Below, in pieces: positions 1,625 through 63,045 of a stretch of DNA of 64,000 nt. The translations under genes and the position numbers were made by a program. The notes under the pieces are model-generated. The model was not told where the DNA came from and did not search any database. It worked only from the letters and a program-made list of their open reading frames with translations. The stretch comes from Thermococcus profundus (GTDB lineage: Archaea > Methanobacteriota_B > Thermococci > Thermococcales > Thermococcaceae), in assembly GCF_002214585.1 (NCBI RefSeq), contig NZ_CP014862.1, forward strand, positions 992,001 through 1,056,000, given 5' to 3'. The stretch's first letter is position 1. Every line of letters starts with the position of its first letter.

Positions 1625-2599
1625 ATGATAATCCGCACTCCAAAGAGGCTTCATCTGGGTTTAATTGATCCATCAGGAGAACTGGGAAGGCGATTCGGTG
1701 CCATGGGAGTCGCTCTATCGGGAGGGTACGAAGTCAAGGTAACCCCAAGCGATGAGCTGAGAATAAACGCCCCGAAGGAGGACGAGGAGACGATAGTGGA
1801 AGTCCTGAAGGCCATGAACGGGGCGTTTGAAACTGGGACCGGGTACTCCATAGAGGTTCTCAGGGCCCTTCCGAGGCACGTGGGACTCGGCTCGACAACG
1901 CAGCTTTCCCTCGCCGTTGGAACGGCGGTGGCGAAGCTTAATGGGCTTAAAGTCAGCACGGAGAGAATAGCGGAGGTGCTCGGGAGGGGAAGGAACAGCG
2001 GAGCGGGTATTTACACCTTCAAAAGCGGCGGCCTCGTCATCGACGGCGGGGTCTCTGGAAGGAATGTCCCCCCGCTGATAGTGAGGCACGACTTCCCGGA
2101 GAGCTGGGCGTTTTTGCTGGTAACCCCAGAGCTCAAACCCGGCTTTGATGAAAGGGAGGAACAGCCCATAATGAGCTCCGTTGGGGGAGATCCTCTCGCG
2201 GCTAGGGAAATAAGCCACAGGATTCTTCTGGGCCTTCTGCCTGCCCTCATCGAGAGGAACATCAGGGACTTCGGGAGGCACCTAACCGCTATTCAGAGGC
2301 TCGTCGGGAGGCACTTCGGAAGCCACCAGGGTGGGGAATTCAGGGAGGACGTCAAGCCGATTATAGACTTTCTCACGGAGAAGACCTACGGCTACGGCCA
2401 GAGCAGCTGGGGACCGACTGTTTACGGCCTCATTCTGAGGGACGGGGGGGAAGAGCTCGCGGAGGAAGCCAGGGATTACCTGAGGGAGCACGGGATAAAA
2501 GGAAGCGTCGAGGTGGGAATGCCCCAAAACACCGGAGCAGAGGTTGTGAACGAGAACGCGTTCCTGGAGAGGCTGATAAAGTCTGTCTCGTCGGGGTGA
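1625..2599 (+). CDS. beta-ribofuranosylaminobenzene 5'-phosphate synthase
   Basis: 324 residues. It has the GHMP-kinase-like fold signature PRHVGLGSTTQLSLAVG at about residues 75-92 and the family start IIRTPKRLHLGLIDP. Beta-RFAP synthase condenses an aromatic acid (4-hydroxybenzoate or p-aminobenzoate) with PRPP, releasing CO2 and pyrophosphate, as the committed step of methanopterin-type cofactor synthesis. Start at ATG 1625, six bases after GGGAGGTG; upstream GTG codons at 1616 and 1619 lie inside that ribosome binding site. It is divergent from the DHPS-like gene and only 4 bases upstream of the AGOG gene. Confidence 0.9.
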   Translation: MIIRTPKRLHLGLIDPSGELGRRFGAMGVALSGGYEVKVTPSDELRINAPKEDEETIVEVLKAMNGAFETGTGYSIEVLRALPRHVGLGSTTQLSLAVGTAVAKLNGLKVSTERIAEVLGRGRNSGAGIYTFKSGGLVIDGGVSGRNVPPLIVRHDFPESWAFLLVTPELKPGFDEREEQPIMSSVGGDPLAAREISHRILLGLLPALIERNIRDFGRHLTAIQRLVGRHFGSHQGGEFREDVKPIIDFLTEKTYGYGQSSWGPTVYGLILRDGGEELAEEARDYLREHGIKGSVEVGMPQNTGAEVVNENAFLERLIKSVSSG

Positions 2600-22655: not shown

Positions 22656-22752
22656 CTTCCCACACCGGGGAAAATGAACTTTTAGGCTTATCAAAGTTTC
22701 CGGAACCAAAGGTTTAATAGCCCTTTTCTCAGACCTCTTTAAGGTGGAAGAT

Positions 22753-56603: not shown

Positions 56604-56965
56604 ACCGATCCCCAGTGAATTAATGCTGGGGGTTTTTAAGACTAGCTTTAAAAGCTCTCTTCAAAAAATAGGATGGGCGATGAAGAGTAGCAAGCAAACT
56701 GAAGGCTCACGGATGATGACGTGAACACCCTCCGAGCCCGCTCAGACCCTTCTGTGGTTCCCAATGTGTGTCTCAACGACCAAATTCGACCGGTTCTCTA
56801 ATCTCCCTCAGAGAAATTTCCAGAATAATTAGGCCGGGCGAACGCTTCTCAACCTTTGGTTTAGAATTTTCGGGTTTAAAAACGCTTTTTTATCCTCCGC
56901 CGGAGCCTTAATTGAGGGGATAGATATGAGCACGTGTATATTTATGTTCACCGGAGGTGGTTCGG
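56604..56965. promoter_or_regulatory. Upstream region of the hydrogenase operon
   Basis: A 362-bp gap. It holds the hydrogenase promoter (TATA TTTAAAAA at 56875-56882), a SurR-like site just upstream, and, in 56640-56840, no gene that can be supported. ATGATGA at 56713 with a CTGA at 56699 mimics a C/D-box RNA but lacks a correct 3' D box. Confidence 0.5.
56845..56861 (+). promoter_or_regulatory. SurR-like binding site upstream of hyhB
   Basis: CTT-n3-AAC-n5-GTT agrees with the known extended SurR site GTTn3AACn5GTT at eight of nine fixed positions (first base C instead of G). It ends 13 bp upstream of the TATA box, where activator binding is expected. In Pyrococcus, SurR activates hydrogenase genes without sulfur and releases when its redox switch is oxidised. 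Confidence 0.6.
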
Positions 56966-58069
56966 TTGAGGTACGTTAAGCTTCCGAAGGAGAACACCTA
57001 TGTCTTCCTCGAAAGACTTAAGGAGTGGGGCAAGCTCTACGCCCCAGTTAAGATCTCCGAGAAATTCTACGATTTCAGGGAAGTTGACGACGTCAAGAAG
57101 GTCGAGTTCAATTACAACAGAACGGTAATGCCACCGAAGAAGTTCTTCTTCAAGCCTAGGGAGAAGCTCTTTGAGTTCAACATCAGGAACGCCGAGTATA
57201 AGGAAGTCATCGAGGAAGTTGAGCCCTTCGTGATCTTTGGAGTCCACGCCTGCGACATCTTTGGCCTGAAGATACTCGACACGATCTACCTCGACGAACT
57301 TCCGGACAAGTACTACAAAGTTCGCAGGGAGAAGGGCATAATAATCGGCATAAGCTGCATGCCCGATGAATACTGCTTCTGCAACCTCCGCGAGACAGAT
57401 TTTGCGGATGACGGCTTTGACCTCTTCCTCCACGAGCTTCCTGATGGATGGCTCGTTCGCGTGGGAACCCCAACAGGCCACAGGATAGTCGACAAGAACA
57501 TCAAGCTCTTCGAGGAAGTTACCACCCGTGACATCTGCAACTTCCGCGAATTTGAGAACAGGCGCGCTCAGGCTTTCAAGTACCACGAGGACTGGAGCAA
57601 CCTGCGCTACCTGCTTGAGCTCGAGATGGAGCACCCGATGTGGGACGAGCAGAGTGAGCTCTGCCTCGCCTGCGGCAACTGCAACACCACCTGTCCGACA
57701 TGCAGATGCTACGAGGTACAGGATATAGTCAACCTCGACGGGGAAACCGGCTACCGCGAGAGGCGCTGGGACTCCTGCCAGCTCAGGAGCCATGGACTTG
57801 TGGCTGGCGGCCACAACTTCAGGGCCACCAAGAAGAGCCGCTTCATGAACCGCTACCTCTGCAAGAACTCCTATAACGAGAAGCTCGGCCTCAGCTACTG
57901 CGTTGGCTGTGGAAGGTGCACCTACTTCTGTCCAGCTGGCATAAGCTTCGTCAAAAACCTGCGCACGATCATGGGGCTTGAGGAGAAGTCCTGCCCGTCC
58001 GAGGTAAGCGAGGAGATTCCGAAGAGGGGCTTCGCATACGCGACCGGGATAAGGGGTGATGACGTATGA
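56966..58069 (+). CDS. hyhB: Cytosolic NiFe sulfhydrogenase I, beta subunit
   Basis: 367 residues. It closely follows Pyrococcus Hyd[34 protein letters not shown], two 4Fe-4S motifs [16 protein letters not shown] and [12 protein letters not shown]. It relays electrons between the flavin subunit and the delta/alpha hydrogenase module. TTG 56966 is the start: GGAGGTGG is 5 bases upstream and the Pyrococcus protein begins at the corresponding MRYVKL. GTG 56957 is within the ribosome binding site. First gene of the operon hyhB-G-S-L. Confidence 0.93.
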
Positions 58070-58956
58070 GCGAGAGCCTTAACCTTCCAAAAGAGATAAT
58101 GATGCCCGAGGAGAACCCCTACGCACTCCACAGGGCCAAAGTCCTCAAGGTCTATCAGCTCACCGAGACCGAAAAGCTCTTCCTGTTCCGCTTCGAGGAT
58201 CCCGACTTGGCGGAGAACTGGACGTTCAGGCCCGGACAGTTCGTCCAGCTCACCATCCCCGGCGTCGGCGAGGTTCCGATAAGCATATGCTCCTCCGCCA
58301 TGAGGAAGGGCTTTTTCGAGCTCTGTATCAGGAAAGCCGGAAGGGTGACCACCGTAGTTCACCGCCTTAAACCCGGAGACACCGTCCTCGTCCGCGGCCC
58401 CTACGGAAACGGCTTCCCCGTTGATGAGTGGGAGGGAATGGACCTGCTCCTCATCGCCGCTGGTTTGGGAACGGCACCTCTGAGGAGCGTCTTCCTCTAC
58501 GCCATGGACAACCGCTGGAAGTACGGCAACATAACCTTCATCAACACTGCCAGGTATGGCAAAGATCTCCTCTTCTACAAGGAACTCGAAGCCATGAAAG
58601 ACCTCGCCGAGGCTGAGAACGTCAAGATAATCCAGAGCGTCACGCGCGACCCGGAGTGGCCGGGTCTCCACGGAAGGCCCCAGAACTTCATAGTCGAGGC
58701 AAACACCAACCCGAAGAAGACCGCGGTGGCCATCTGCGGCCCGCCGAGGATGTACAAGTCCGTCTTCGAGTCCCTCATCAACTACGGTTACAGGCCCGAG
58801 AACATATTCGTGACGCTGGAGAGGAAGATGAAGTGCGGAATAGGTAAGTGCGGCCACTGTGTTGTTGGGACGAGCACGAGTCTCAAGTACGTCTGCAAAG
58901 ACGGGCCCGTCTTCGGATACTTCGACATAATATCAACGCCCGGCCTGCTTGACTGA
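58066..58956 (+). CDS. hyhG: Cytosolic NiFe sulfhydrogenase I, gamma subunit (flavoprotein)
   Basis: 296 residues. FAD-binding [12 protein letters not shown] and [11 protein letters not shown](P)-binding [26 protein letters not shown], and a C-terminal 2Fe-2S motif [12 protein letters not shown] with the last Cys in YVCKDGPVF. It oxidises or reduces NADP(H). The ATG overlaps the hyhB stop by four bases (ATGA). Confidence 0.95.
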
Positions 58957-58966
58957 GGTGGTGATG

Positions 58967-59758
58967 ATGGGAGAGAAGATAAGGATCGGGTTTTACGCTC
59001 TAACGTCATGCTACGGCTGTCAGCTCCAGTTCGCCATGATGGACGAGATACTCCAGCTCATCCCGAACGTGGAGGTAGCCTGCTGGTTCATGCTGGAGAG
59101 GGACTCCTACGAGGACGAGCCGGTTGATATAGCCCTCATCGAGGGGAGCGTTTCAACCGAGGAAGAGATCGAACTCGTCAAGAAAATCCGCGAGAACGCC
59201 AGGGTCGTGGTTGCCGTTGGCTCCTGCGCCGTTCAGGGAGGCGTCCAGAGCTGGGAGAAGGACAAACCGCTGGAAGAACTGTGGGAGAGGGTCTACGGTG
59301 ATGCGAAGGTCAAGTTCAAGCCAAAGATGGCCGAGCCGGTGGAGAACTACATCAAAGTTGACTACAAGGTCTACGGCTGTCCGCCGGAGAAGAGGGATCT
59401 CCTCTACACACTCGGAACGCTCCTCATAGGCTCGTGGCCCGAGGACATTGATTACCCGGTCTGCGTTGAGTGCAGGCTTAGGGGAAACACCTGCGTACTC
59501 CTCGAGAAGGGCGAGCCCTGCCTCGGCCCGATAACGAGGGCCGGCTGTGACGCGAGGTGTCCAGCATATGGAATAGCCTGTATCGGGTGCAGGGGAGCGA
59601 TAGACTACGATGTAGCATGGTTCGACTCCCTCGCCAGGGTCTTCAAGGAGAAGGGGCTGACCAAGGAGGATATCCTGGAGAGGATGAGGATGTTCAACGC
59701 GCACAACCCGAAGCTCGAGGAGATGGTTAACAAGATATTCGGGGGGGTGAAGGAATGA
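58967..59758 (+). CDS. hyhS: Cytosolic NiFe sulfhydrogenase I, delta (small) subunit
   Basis: 263 residues. Proximal and other 4Fe-4S ligands are in [35 protein letters not shown] and the C-terminal CLGP...[17 protein letters not shown]. The start at ATG 58967 (MGEKIRIGF) matches the Pyrococcus protein; GAGGTGG is upstream. The stop overlaps hyhL by four bases. Confidence 0.95.
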
Positions 59759-61041
59759 AGAACGTTTATCTCCCGATCACAGTCGACCACATAGCGAGGG
59801 TCGAGGGAAAGGGGGGCGTTGAGATCATCGTCGGCGACGGTGGAGTGAAGGAGGTCAAGCTCAACATTATCGAGGGGCCGAGGTTTTTCGAGGCCATAAC
59901 CCTCGGCAAGAAACTCGACGAAGCCCTGTCTGTTTACCCGAGGATATGTTCCTTCTGCTCTGCCGCACACAAGCTCACTGCCGTTGAGGCGGCAGAGAAA
60001 GCAGTTGGCTTCACTCCGCGCGAGGAAATCCAGGCCCTCAGGGAAGTTCTCTACATAGGCGACATGATAGAGAGCCATGCCCTCCACCTCTACCTCCTCG
60101 TCCTTCCCGACTACATGGGCTACTCCGGGCCGCTCCACATGATAGACGAGTACAAGAGGGAGATACGCATAGCTCTCGACCTCAAGAACCTTGGGAGCTG
60201 GATGATGGACGAGCTTGGCTCAAGGGCCATCCATCAGGAGAACGCGGTTTTGGGAGGCTTTGGAAAGCTCCCGGACAAGAGTGTGATTGAGAAGATGAAA
60301 GAAAAACTGAAAGAGGCCCTTCCAAAGGCAGAGTACACCTTCGAGCTCTTCACAAAGCTTGAGCAGTACGAGGAAGTCGAGGGGCCGATTATACACATTG
60401 CCGTCAAACCGAGGGATGAAGCTTATGGCATCTACGGCGACTACCTCAAGGCCTCGGATGGTGTGGAGTTCCCGAGCGAGGAGTACAGGGAGCACATAAA
60501 GGAGTTCGTCGTCGAGCACAGCTTCGCCAAGCACAGCGTCTATAGAGAAAAGCCCTTCATGGTGGGAGCGATATCGCGCCTTGTTAACAACTCAGATCTC
60601 CTCTACGGAAGGGCAAAGGACCTCTACGAGGGTCACAAAGATCTCCTGAGGGATACCAACCCCTTCGCCAACAACCTCGCTCAGGCCCTTGAGCTCGTCT
60701 ACTTCATAGAGAGGGCGATAGACCTCATCGATGAGGCACTCGCGAAATGGCCGATAAGGCCGAGGGATACAGTTGAGATACGGGACGGGTTCGGCGTCTC
60801 GACTACCGAAGCCCCGCGTGGAGTGCTCGTTTACGCGCTCAAGGTCGAGAACGGAAGGGTTTCCTACGCGGACATAATCACACCGACGGCCTTCAACCTA
60901 GCCATGATGGAGGAGCACGTGAGAATGATGGCTGAGAAGCACTACAGCGACGACCCGGAGAGGCTTAAGTACCTCACGGAGATGGTAGTTAGAGCATACG
61001 ATCCGTGCATCTCCTGTTCGGTTCACGTGGCGAGGCTTTAG
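59755..61041 (+). CDS. hyhL: Cytosolic NiFe sulfhydrogenase I, alpha (large, NiFe) subunit
   Basis: 428 residues. Ni-Fe ligands are the Cys pairs RICSFC (about 65-68) and DPCISCSVH at the C-terminus. RVEGKGGVE at residue 15 is a conserved helper motif. The last four residues VARL follow the His of DPCxxCxxH and are the extension cut off by a maturation protease, a candidate for which lies at 62599. Together with hyhBGS it forms the cytosolic H2:NADP enzyme, also able to reduce sulfur. Confidence 0.96.
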
Positions 61042-62490: not shown

Positions 62491-62598
62491 CTTTATCCCC
62501 CCACTTATAGATGTCATGACTATGCTTTATAGTTAGTTGAGTATTTAAGCTTTTCAATGGGTTTAAAAGTATCCTCTCGAAGTATGTCCGGTGGGAGA

Positions 62599-63045
62599 AT
62601 GAGAGCCCTGATCCTAGCCCTCGGAAACGAGCTGATGAAGGACGACGGGGTTGGTCTCAAAGCCGGCAGAATCCTCGCGGAGAAGGGATACAACGTCCTT
62701 GAGGTTGGAACGGACATATTCCGCCTGGCCAGCCACTACCGGGGAGAGGAGAGGCTCATAATCATAGACGCCATACTGAGCGACAAGCTGAGGCCAGGTG
62801 AGGTAGTCCACTTCTCAGGGGAAGAAGTCTTCGAGAAGCTGAAGGCTGAAATCCGGAGCGCCCACTTCATGGGCGCGATAGACGGCCTCAAACTCCTCAT
62901 GGCGCTCGATGAGAGGCTGAAAGGGGTGGAAATCCACTTTATAGGTGTTGTGGCCAAGGACATAGATCTTGGAATGGAGCTGAGCGATGAGGTGGATGGA
63001 GCAGTCCCGAAGGTCGTCGAGATGGTTGAAAGACTTGCCAAATAG
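62599..63045 (+). CDS. Hydrogenase maturation protease (HyaD/HycI family)
   Basis: 148 residues. ALGNELMKDDGVGLKAG has the first metal-site acid, IIIDAILSD the central Asp, and SAHFMGAIDGLKLL the His region. It removes the C-terminal extension from a NiFe large subunit after metal insertion. Proximity to hyhL makes that its likely substrate. ATG 62599 is 5 bases after GGTGGGA; upstream ATG 62584 lacks a ribosome binding site. Confidence 0.88.
   Translation: MRALILALGNELMKDDGVGLKAGRILAEKGYNVLEVGTDIFRLASHYRGEERLIIIDAILSDKLRPGEVVHFSGEEVFEKLKAEIRSAHFMGAIDGLKLLMALDERLKGVEIHFIGVVAKDIDLGMELSDEVDGAVPKVVEMVERLAK

Follow-up and report, generated by a model that had tools for sequence, protein, structure and literature searches.

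What is conserved at the promoter of the soluble hydrogenase I (SHI) operon is the AACCTTTGGTT dyad together with a fixed gap of 13 bp to the TATA box. This operator is without the textbook GTTn3AAC core of SurR sites, and it retains the inner AACn5GTT half-sites of extended SurR sites. By sequence comparison, the operator of SHI is non-canonical across the family and consists of a 15-bp dyad placed before a weak, GGG-type BRE. The element is probably a variant SurR operator, through which reduced SurR would activate SHI; on the best reading it would work like a SurR site although it falls outside the strict consensus. The window, the whole stretch of 64,000 nucleotides that was analysed, corresponds to positions 992001-1056000 of contig 1 of genome G000.

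The operon at 56966-61041 encodes SHI with the subunit order beta, gamma, delta, alpha. Its assignment as hyhBGSL in the original prediction is borne out, as all four subunits score above the NCBIfam cut-offs for 'NADPH-dependent hydrogenase/sulfhydrogenase 1' (Table 1). A hydrogenase maturation protease gene (62557-63045, +; TIGR00072, 108 bits) lies downstream of hyhL. At the promoter, positions 56845-56861 read CTT (56845-56847), CTC, AAC (56851-56853), CTTTG and GTT (56859-56861), and the letters agree with the predicted eight-of-nine match to the extended SurR site GTTn3AACn5GTT. The predicted distance of 13 bp from the end of this site to the TATA box is read directly (56861 to 56875-56882). 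AACCTTTGGTT at 56851-56861 is the window's copy of AACn5GTT, so the n5GTT extension after AAC is present; the canonical GTTn3AAC core is missing, with CTTn3AAC at 56845. The median TATA-to-TSS distance in T. kodakarensis is ~23 bp (PMC4247193), which would place the transcription start near 56904 and give a leader of ~62 nt up to the TTG at 56966 (frame MRYVKLP...), in line with the TTG start and the ~60-base leader proposed before.

Table 1. Features of the SHI promoter and operon, in window coordinates
Feature	Position	Strand	Basis or remark
CTT in place of the first GTT of the canonical SurR site, degenerate, unconserved	56845..56847	+	GTT in 9/76 SHI loci
Core operator, 15-bp dyad T-n-AACC-TTT-GGTT-n-A (here TCAACCTTTGGTTTA)	56849..56863	+	centre 56856
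AAT where the mirror GTTn3AAC needs AAC	56865..56867	+	AA invariant, C missing; 76 SHI loci
TCGGG at the BRE position, weak BRE	56870..56874	+	compared with consensus VRAAA
TATA box TTTAAAAA	56875..56882	+	13 bases after operator GTT
Conserved GCTTTTTTA block, TATA to predicted start site	56884..56892	+	T (near-)invariant at five to six positions, 67 distinct sequences
Predicted transcription start, ~ +/-3	56904	+	from TATA-to-TSS distance (PMC4247193); purine-rich column +52 to +54
RBS GGAGGTG of hyhB, strong	56953..56959	+	sequence
hyhB, SHI beta subunit, TTG start	56966..58069	+	NF040833, 810 bits, cut-off 750
hyhG, SHI gamma subunit	58066..58956	+	NF040835, 658 bits, cut-off 650
hyhS, SHI delta (small) subunit	58949..59758	+	NF040836, 558 bits, cut-off 500
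hyhL, SHI alpha (large) subunit	59755..61041	+	NF040832, 897 bits, cut-off 880

The score of eight in nine alone proves nothing, since the window contains 12 such matches to GTTn3AACn5GTT against 10.36 expected, and 35 of 100 shuffles reach 12. Two of the 12 overlap on opposite strands (56845-56861, +; 56851-56867, -) and have AACCTTTGGTT in common. The pattern TNAACCTTTGGTTNA, picked after the alignment had been seen, occurs twice in the window with at most one mismatch against 0.08 expected. The evidence against chance is the conservation across SHI upstreams rather than the match score: AACn5GTT is present within 250 bp upstream of all 77 SHI genes, and in the next 250 bp upstream of 10 of them. 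Elsewhere in the window, a second AACCTTTGGTT (22702-22716) has one mismatch to the 15-bp dyad and no canonical SurR flank, and sits between genes that we read as nitroreductase-like and racemase-like. An exact GTTn3AACn5GTT at 1817-1833 (-) falls within a long open frame and is probably due to chance.

A match to the beta subunit was found in 84 of 94 family genomes, and SHI upstreams were taken from 77; loci that were truncated, incomplete or divided at contig ends (G003, G049, G050, G063, G065) and genomes with an SHII-type paralog only (G087, G089) were left out. With the core defined by the regular expression AAC[CAT][TA]T[TA][GA]GTT, a AACCTTTGGTT-type core is present in 74 of the 77 upstreams, and in 76 when L024 and L030, with one mismatch, are included. 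L027 (genome G072) is the sole SHI promoter of the 77 that has lost both operator and TATA from their normal position; in G072 the mbh operon is the neighbour of SHI, and its elements may have assumed the role there. The mbh operon adjoins SHI divergently in 11 genomes (G020, G028, G041, G050, G055, G058, G059, G066, G068, G069, G072), where both operons share an upstream region of ~270 to 300 bp; in the window's genome they are apart. The invariance of the core is partly by construction because the sequences were aligned on it. Outside this anchor, the 67 distinct SHI sequences share T at -2 (64/67), AA at +14/+15 (67/67) and G at +21, +22 and +23 (65, 67 and 63), and the TATA box and a T-run to +41 are also conserved in a gap-free alignment. 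The operator-to-TATA gap is exactly 13 bp in 76 of 76 promoters, and the distance from operator to start codon is 112 to 140. AACn5GTT is absent from the 300 bp upstream of eight outgroup hydrogenases (L102, L116, L118-L123), and the extended site is present at L117, from a Thermococcales bin with 58% identity.

The SurR consensus in Thermococcales is GTTn3AAC or GTTn3AACn5GTT (PMC12162507, PMC8595942 and PMC10025317, in their available parts). The original prediction had taken the window's element for a canonical extended site with one tolerated mismatch, which agrees with eight of nine letters and is nevertheless very unlikely. At the SHI core, the left GTT that completes GTTn3AAC is present in 9 of 76 promoters, the right AAC in one and neither in 66, and the right flank triplet is AAT in 54, AAG in 11, AAA in 10 and AAC in one. 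The canonical GTTn3AAC is centred elsewhere than the SHI dyad (centre 56856) and is not kept. In contrast to the 9 of 76, the full site is found at 47 of 48 SHII loci (Fisher P 8e-24, a value that ignores phylogeny). No selection acts on the first half-site (CTT in place of GTT), and the element is therefore something other than an extended SurR site that has picked up a single mismatch by chance. Within 250 bp upstream, the full GTTn3AACn5GTT is present in 47/48 SHII, 28/30 mbh and 29/29 surR/pdo upstreams, the SHII loci being a subset of those listed and one of 30 surR loci having been dropped as too short. The mbh and surR sets lean to the genus because the 30 best matches of each search were taken, and at two mbh loci (L230, L231) the extracted region seems to be misplaced. 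Upstream of SHI the corresponding count is 20 of 77, of which nine lie at the core itself, and some of the other full sites may belong to the divergent mbh operon. The proposed SurR-type switch is supported as to the regulator, with a SurR ortholog bearing CxxC and an element upstream of TATA, and falls as to the extended-site register.

SurR is represented in the window's genome by one clear ortholog (L031, 634-1362, minus) with the redox pair CTEC, encoded divergently from a protein disulfide oxidoreductase gene. It matches PDB 2qlz (PF0095) with E 3.8e-86 and the NCBIfam SurR model with 391 bits (cut-off 250). A SurR-like match occurs in 94 of 94 family genomes, clear in 92 and weak in G010 and G064 (E 2.4e-9 and 7.5e-8), and CxxC is present in all 30 SurR loci examined. 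Exact extended SurR sites number 31 in the window's genome against five for the reversed pattern. They precede genes recognised as mbh and mbs-like Mrp subunits, and SHII, nfn-like, CoA-disulfide-reductase/Nsr-like, hypA, hypF and surR/pdo genes, where the names Nsr, Nfn and Mbs are our reading of family matches; further exact sites fall within long open frames. The exact sites at 612368, 614898 and 616335 of G000 contig 1 (L158-L160) lie before hydrogenase maturation genes, namely hypA, a HypC-like start and hypF. The motif AACCnnnGGTT has 46 copies in the genome against 15 for the reversed control. A GTTn3AAC half-site flanks nine of the 46, where 1.4 would be expected (P 1e-5), and these nine include the copies that precede mbh, mbs-like, nfn-like and surR/pdo genes. 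The motif is thus associated with SurR sites in this genome. AACCTTTGGTT itself occurs in eight copies, four of them without a GTT flank; SHI is one of these, and the other three adjoin genes with no obvious role in hydrogen or sulfur metabolism.

A different regulator could read AACCTTTGGTT at SHI and SurR could act only indirectly, an alternative that we consider unlikely. The canonical core is missing in 66 of 76 SHI promoters, and the TTT spacer hardly varies even though these positions are free in the SurR consensus. Moreover, another regulator has been raised in print as a possibility for mutated motifs of the SHI type (PMC8595942). In T. barophilus, according to the accessible portion of PMC12162507, shI is still clearly down after 0.5 g/L sulfur in the surR mutant; some of this response may thus be independent of SurR. 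On the other hand, AACCnnnGGTT is over-represented within the exact SurR sites of the window's genome, and the identical 11-mer is present in 17 of 30 mbh upstreams, mostly adjoining a full SurR site. In addition, the same portion of that paper indicates that shI needs SurR, as its transcript is lower in the mutant (a partial deletion), most clearly together with mbhI. The SHI promoter of T. barophilus (L043 in G086, a genome identified by the gene coordinates given there) has AACCTTTGGTT with flanks CAT and AAG and no canonical site.

Direct reading by SurR also fits the promoter architecture. According to the available parts of PMC12162507 and PMC12401011, SurR activates from upstream of TATA, and the latter adds that binding upstream of BRE/TATA leads to activation and binding over TATA to repression; the window's element lies upstream of BRE/TATA. 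Against the BRE consensus VRAAA (PMC5937170, in part), the five bases before TATA match at 0/5 positions in 46 of 76 SHI promoters and at 4/5 positions in all 35 scorable SHII promoters of 48; taking the best of four offsets, SHI mostly reaches 2 to 3 and SHII 5. SHI has the marks of a weak-BRE, activator-dependent promoter, a BRE off VRAAA and a palindrome at fixed distance. That the conserved block is the core promoter only, TATA and its surroundings with no regulator bound, is hardly credible: the block does continue gap-free into TATA, but conserved bases with dyad symmetry reach as far as 26 bp before TATA, and the BRE runs against the consensus. Furthermore, SHI responds to sulfur and SurR in relatives (available text of PMC6981617 and PMC12162507). 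The weak BRE, good TATA and palindrome at fixed distance recall TFB-RF1, for which TFB recruitment has been shown (PMC5937170, sections available), and SurR is proposed on this ground to recruit TFB at SHI.

In the proposed mechanism, SurR with its CxxC reduced would bind the AACCTTTGGTT dyad at 56849-56863 in the absence of sulfur, at a rigid distance from TATA, and would help TFB onto a promoter whose BRE, with GGG instead of AAA, is too weak to function well by itself. With sulfur, the CTEC pair of SurR would oxidise, SurR would release the DNA and SHI expression would drop. For the window's strain, we infer SurR binding, the TFB step and the sulfur response. Sulfur control of SHI as such is already known: sulfur lowers SHI in Palaeococcus, P. 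furiosus and T. onnurineus (PMC6981617, Table 2, and PMC4463584, as far as their text was available).

The SHI upstream region has two further features. A 17-codon frame that begins with the ATG at 56926 (56926-56979, +) overlaps the hyhB start and has a Shine-Dalgarno-like GAGGGGAT of its own; 39 of 77 SHI leaders have an ATG at -40. In a column-shuffle test, between 6 and 21 of 500 shuffles attained the protein similarity of this frame. Synonymous changes are not raised and frame +2 scores equally, so that a leader peptide is not supported. The Rfam search of the upstream region returned a C/D box candidate and no riboswitch: a C/D box sRNA-like sequence in the SHI upstream gap (56675-56740, +) scores 26.5 bits with sR3, below the cut-off of 41. 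Similar sequence occurs in 88 of 94 family genomes, far from SHI in those compared, and 56675-56740 is therefore probably an sRNA gene that happens to be located here in the window's genome.

In published surveys, which proceed by species, the SHI motif is described as mutated or absent, and whether SurR binds it is left open (PMC8595942, PMC12162507, PMC10025317, in the parts available); the sh promoters of groups 2-4 are described as without SurR sequence (PMC10025317). The present comparison makes the 'mutated' form the conserved norm, names the key bases and reduces the SurR question to a mutational test. It suggests that the SurR consensus used in genome scans misses a real class of targets. 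This form as the family norm, the rigid gap and the weak BRE were not found in the literature searched, in which the string aacctttggtt together with Thermococcus appears in PMC8595942 only; the founding SurR papers were beyond the reach of this search, and an SHI footprint may exist there. It is possible, but doubtful, that there are two classes of SurR operator, one of GTTn3AAC arrays (mbh, SHII, surR) and a second with a single AACCTTTGGTT dyad, fixed gap and weak BRE, or alternatively that this second form is read by a regulator other than SurR. Equally tentative is the same joint reading's suggestion that class two engages another dimer register or the second winged helix of SurR. Its last part, that the class has been retained at SHI from the common ancestor of the sampled family onward and gives SHI a sulfur response of its own, is likewise a speculative one.

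Among known systems, the TFB-RF1 promoters of Pyrococcus (available part of PMC5937170) resemble SHI in having a palindrome at conserved distance, a weak BRE and a good TATA. They differ in the palindrome, TCTGAANTTCAGA, which was not found on reading 56800-56882, and in the regulator. The T. piezophilus SHI site, listed as 'long with mutation: gttttaacctttggtt deletion' (PMC8595942), is like the window's, with the same operon and the same AACCTTTGGTT core, and altered SHI motifs are also reported for T. barophilus (PMC12162507, in part). In the available text of these papers, the alteration is a mutation of one species, whereas here it is the state of 66 of 76 SHI promoters. Similar to canonical SurR operators, the SHI element has AACn5GTT upstream of TATA, in a SurR-bearing genome and before a sulfur-regulated hydrogenase operon. 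In contrast to them, its GTTn3AAC core is missing family-wide, and near-invariance of the inner dyad and the TTT spacer goes along with degenerate flanking half-sites.
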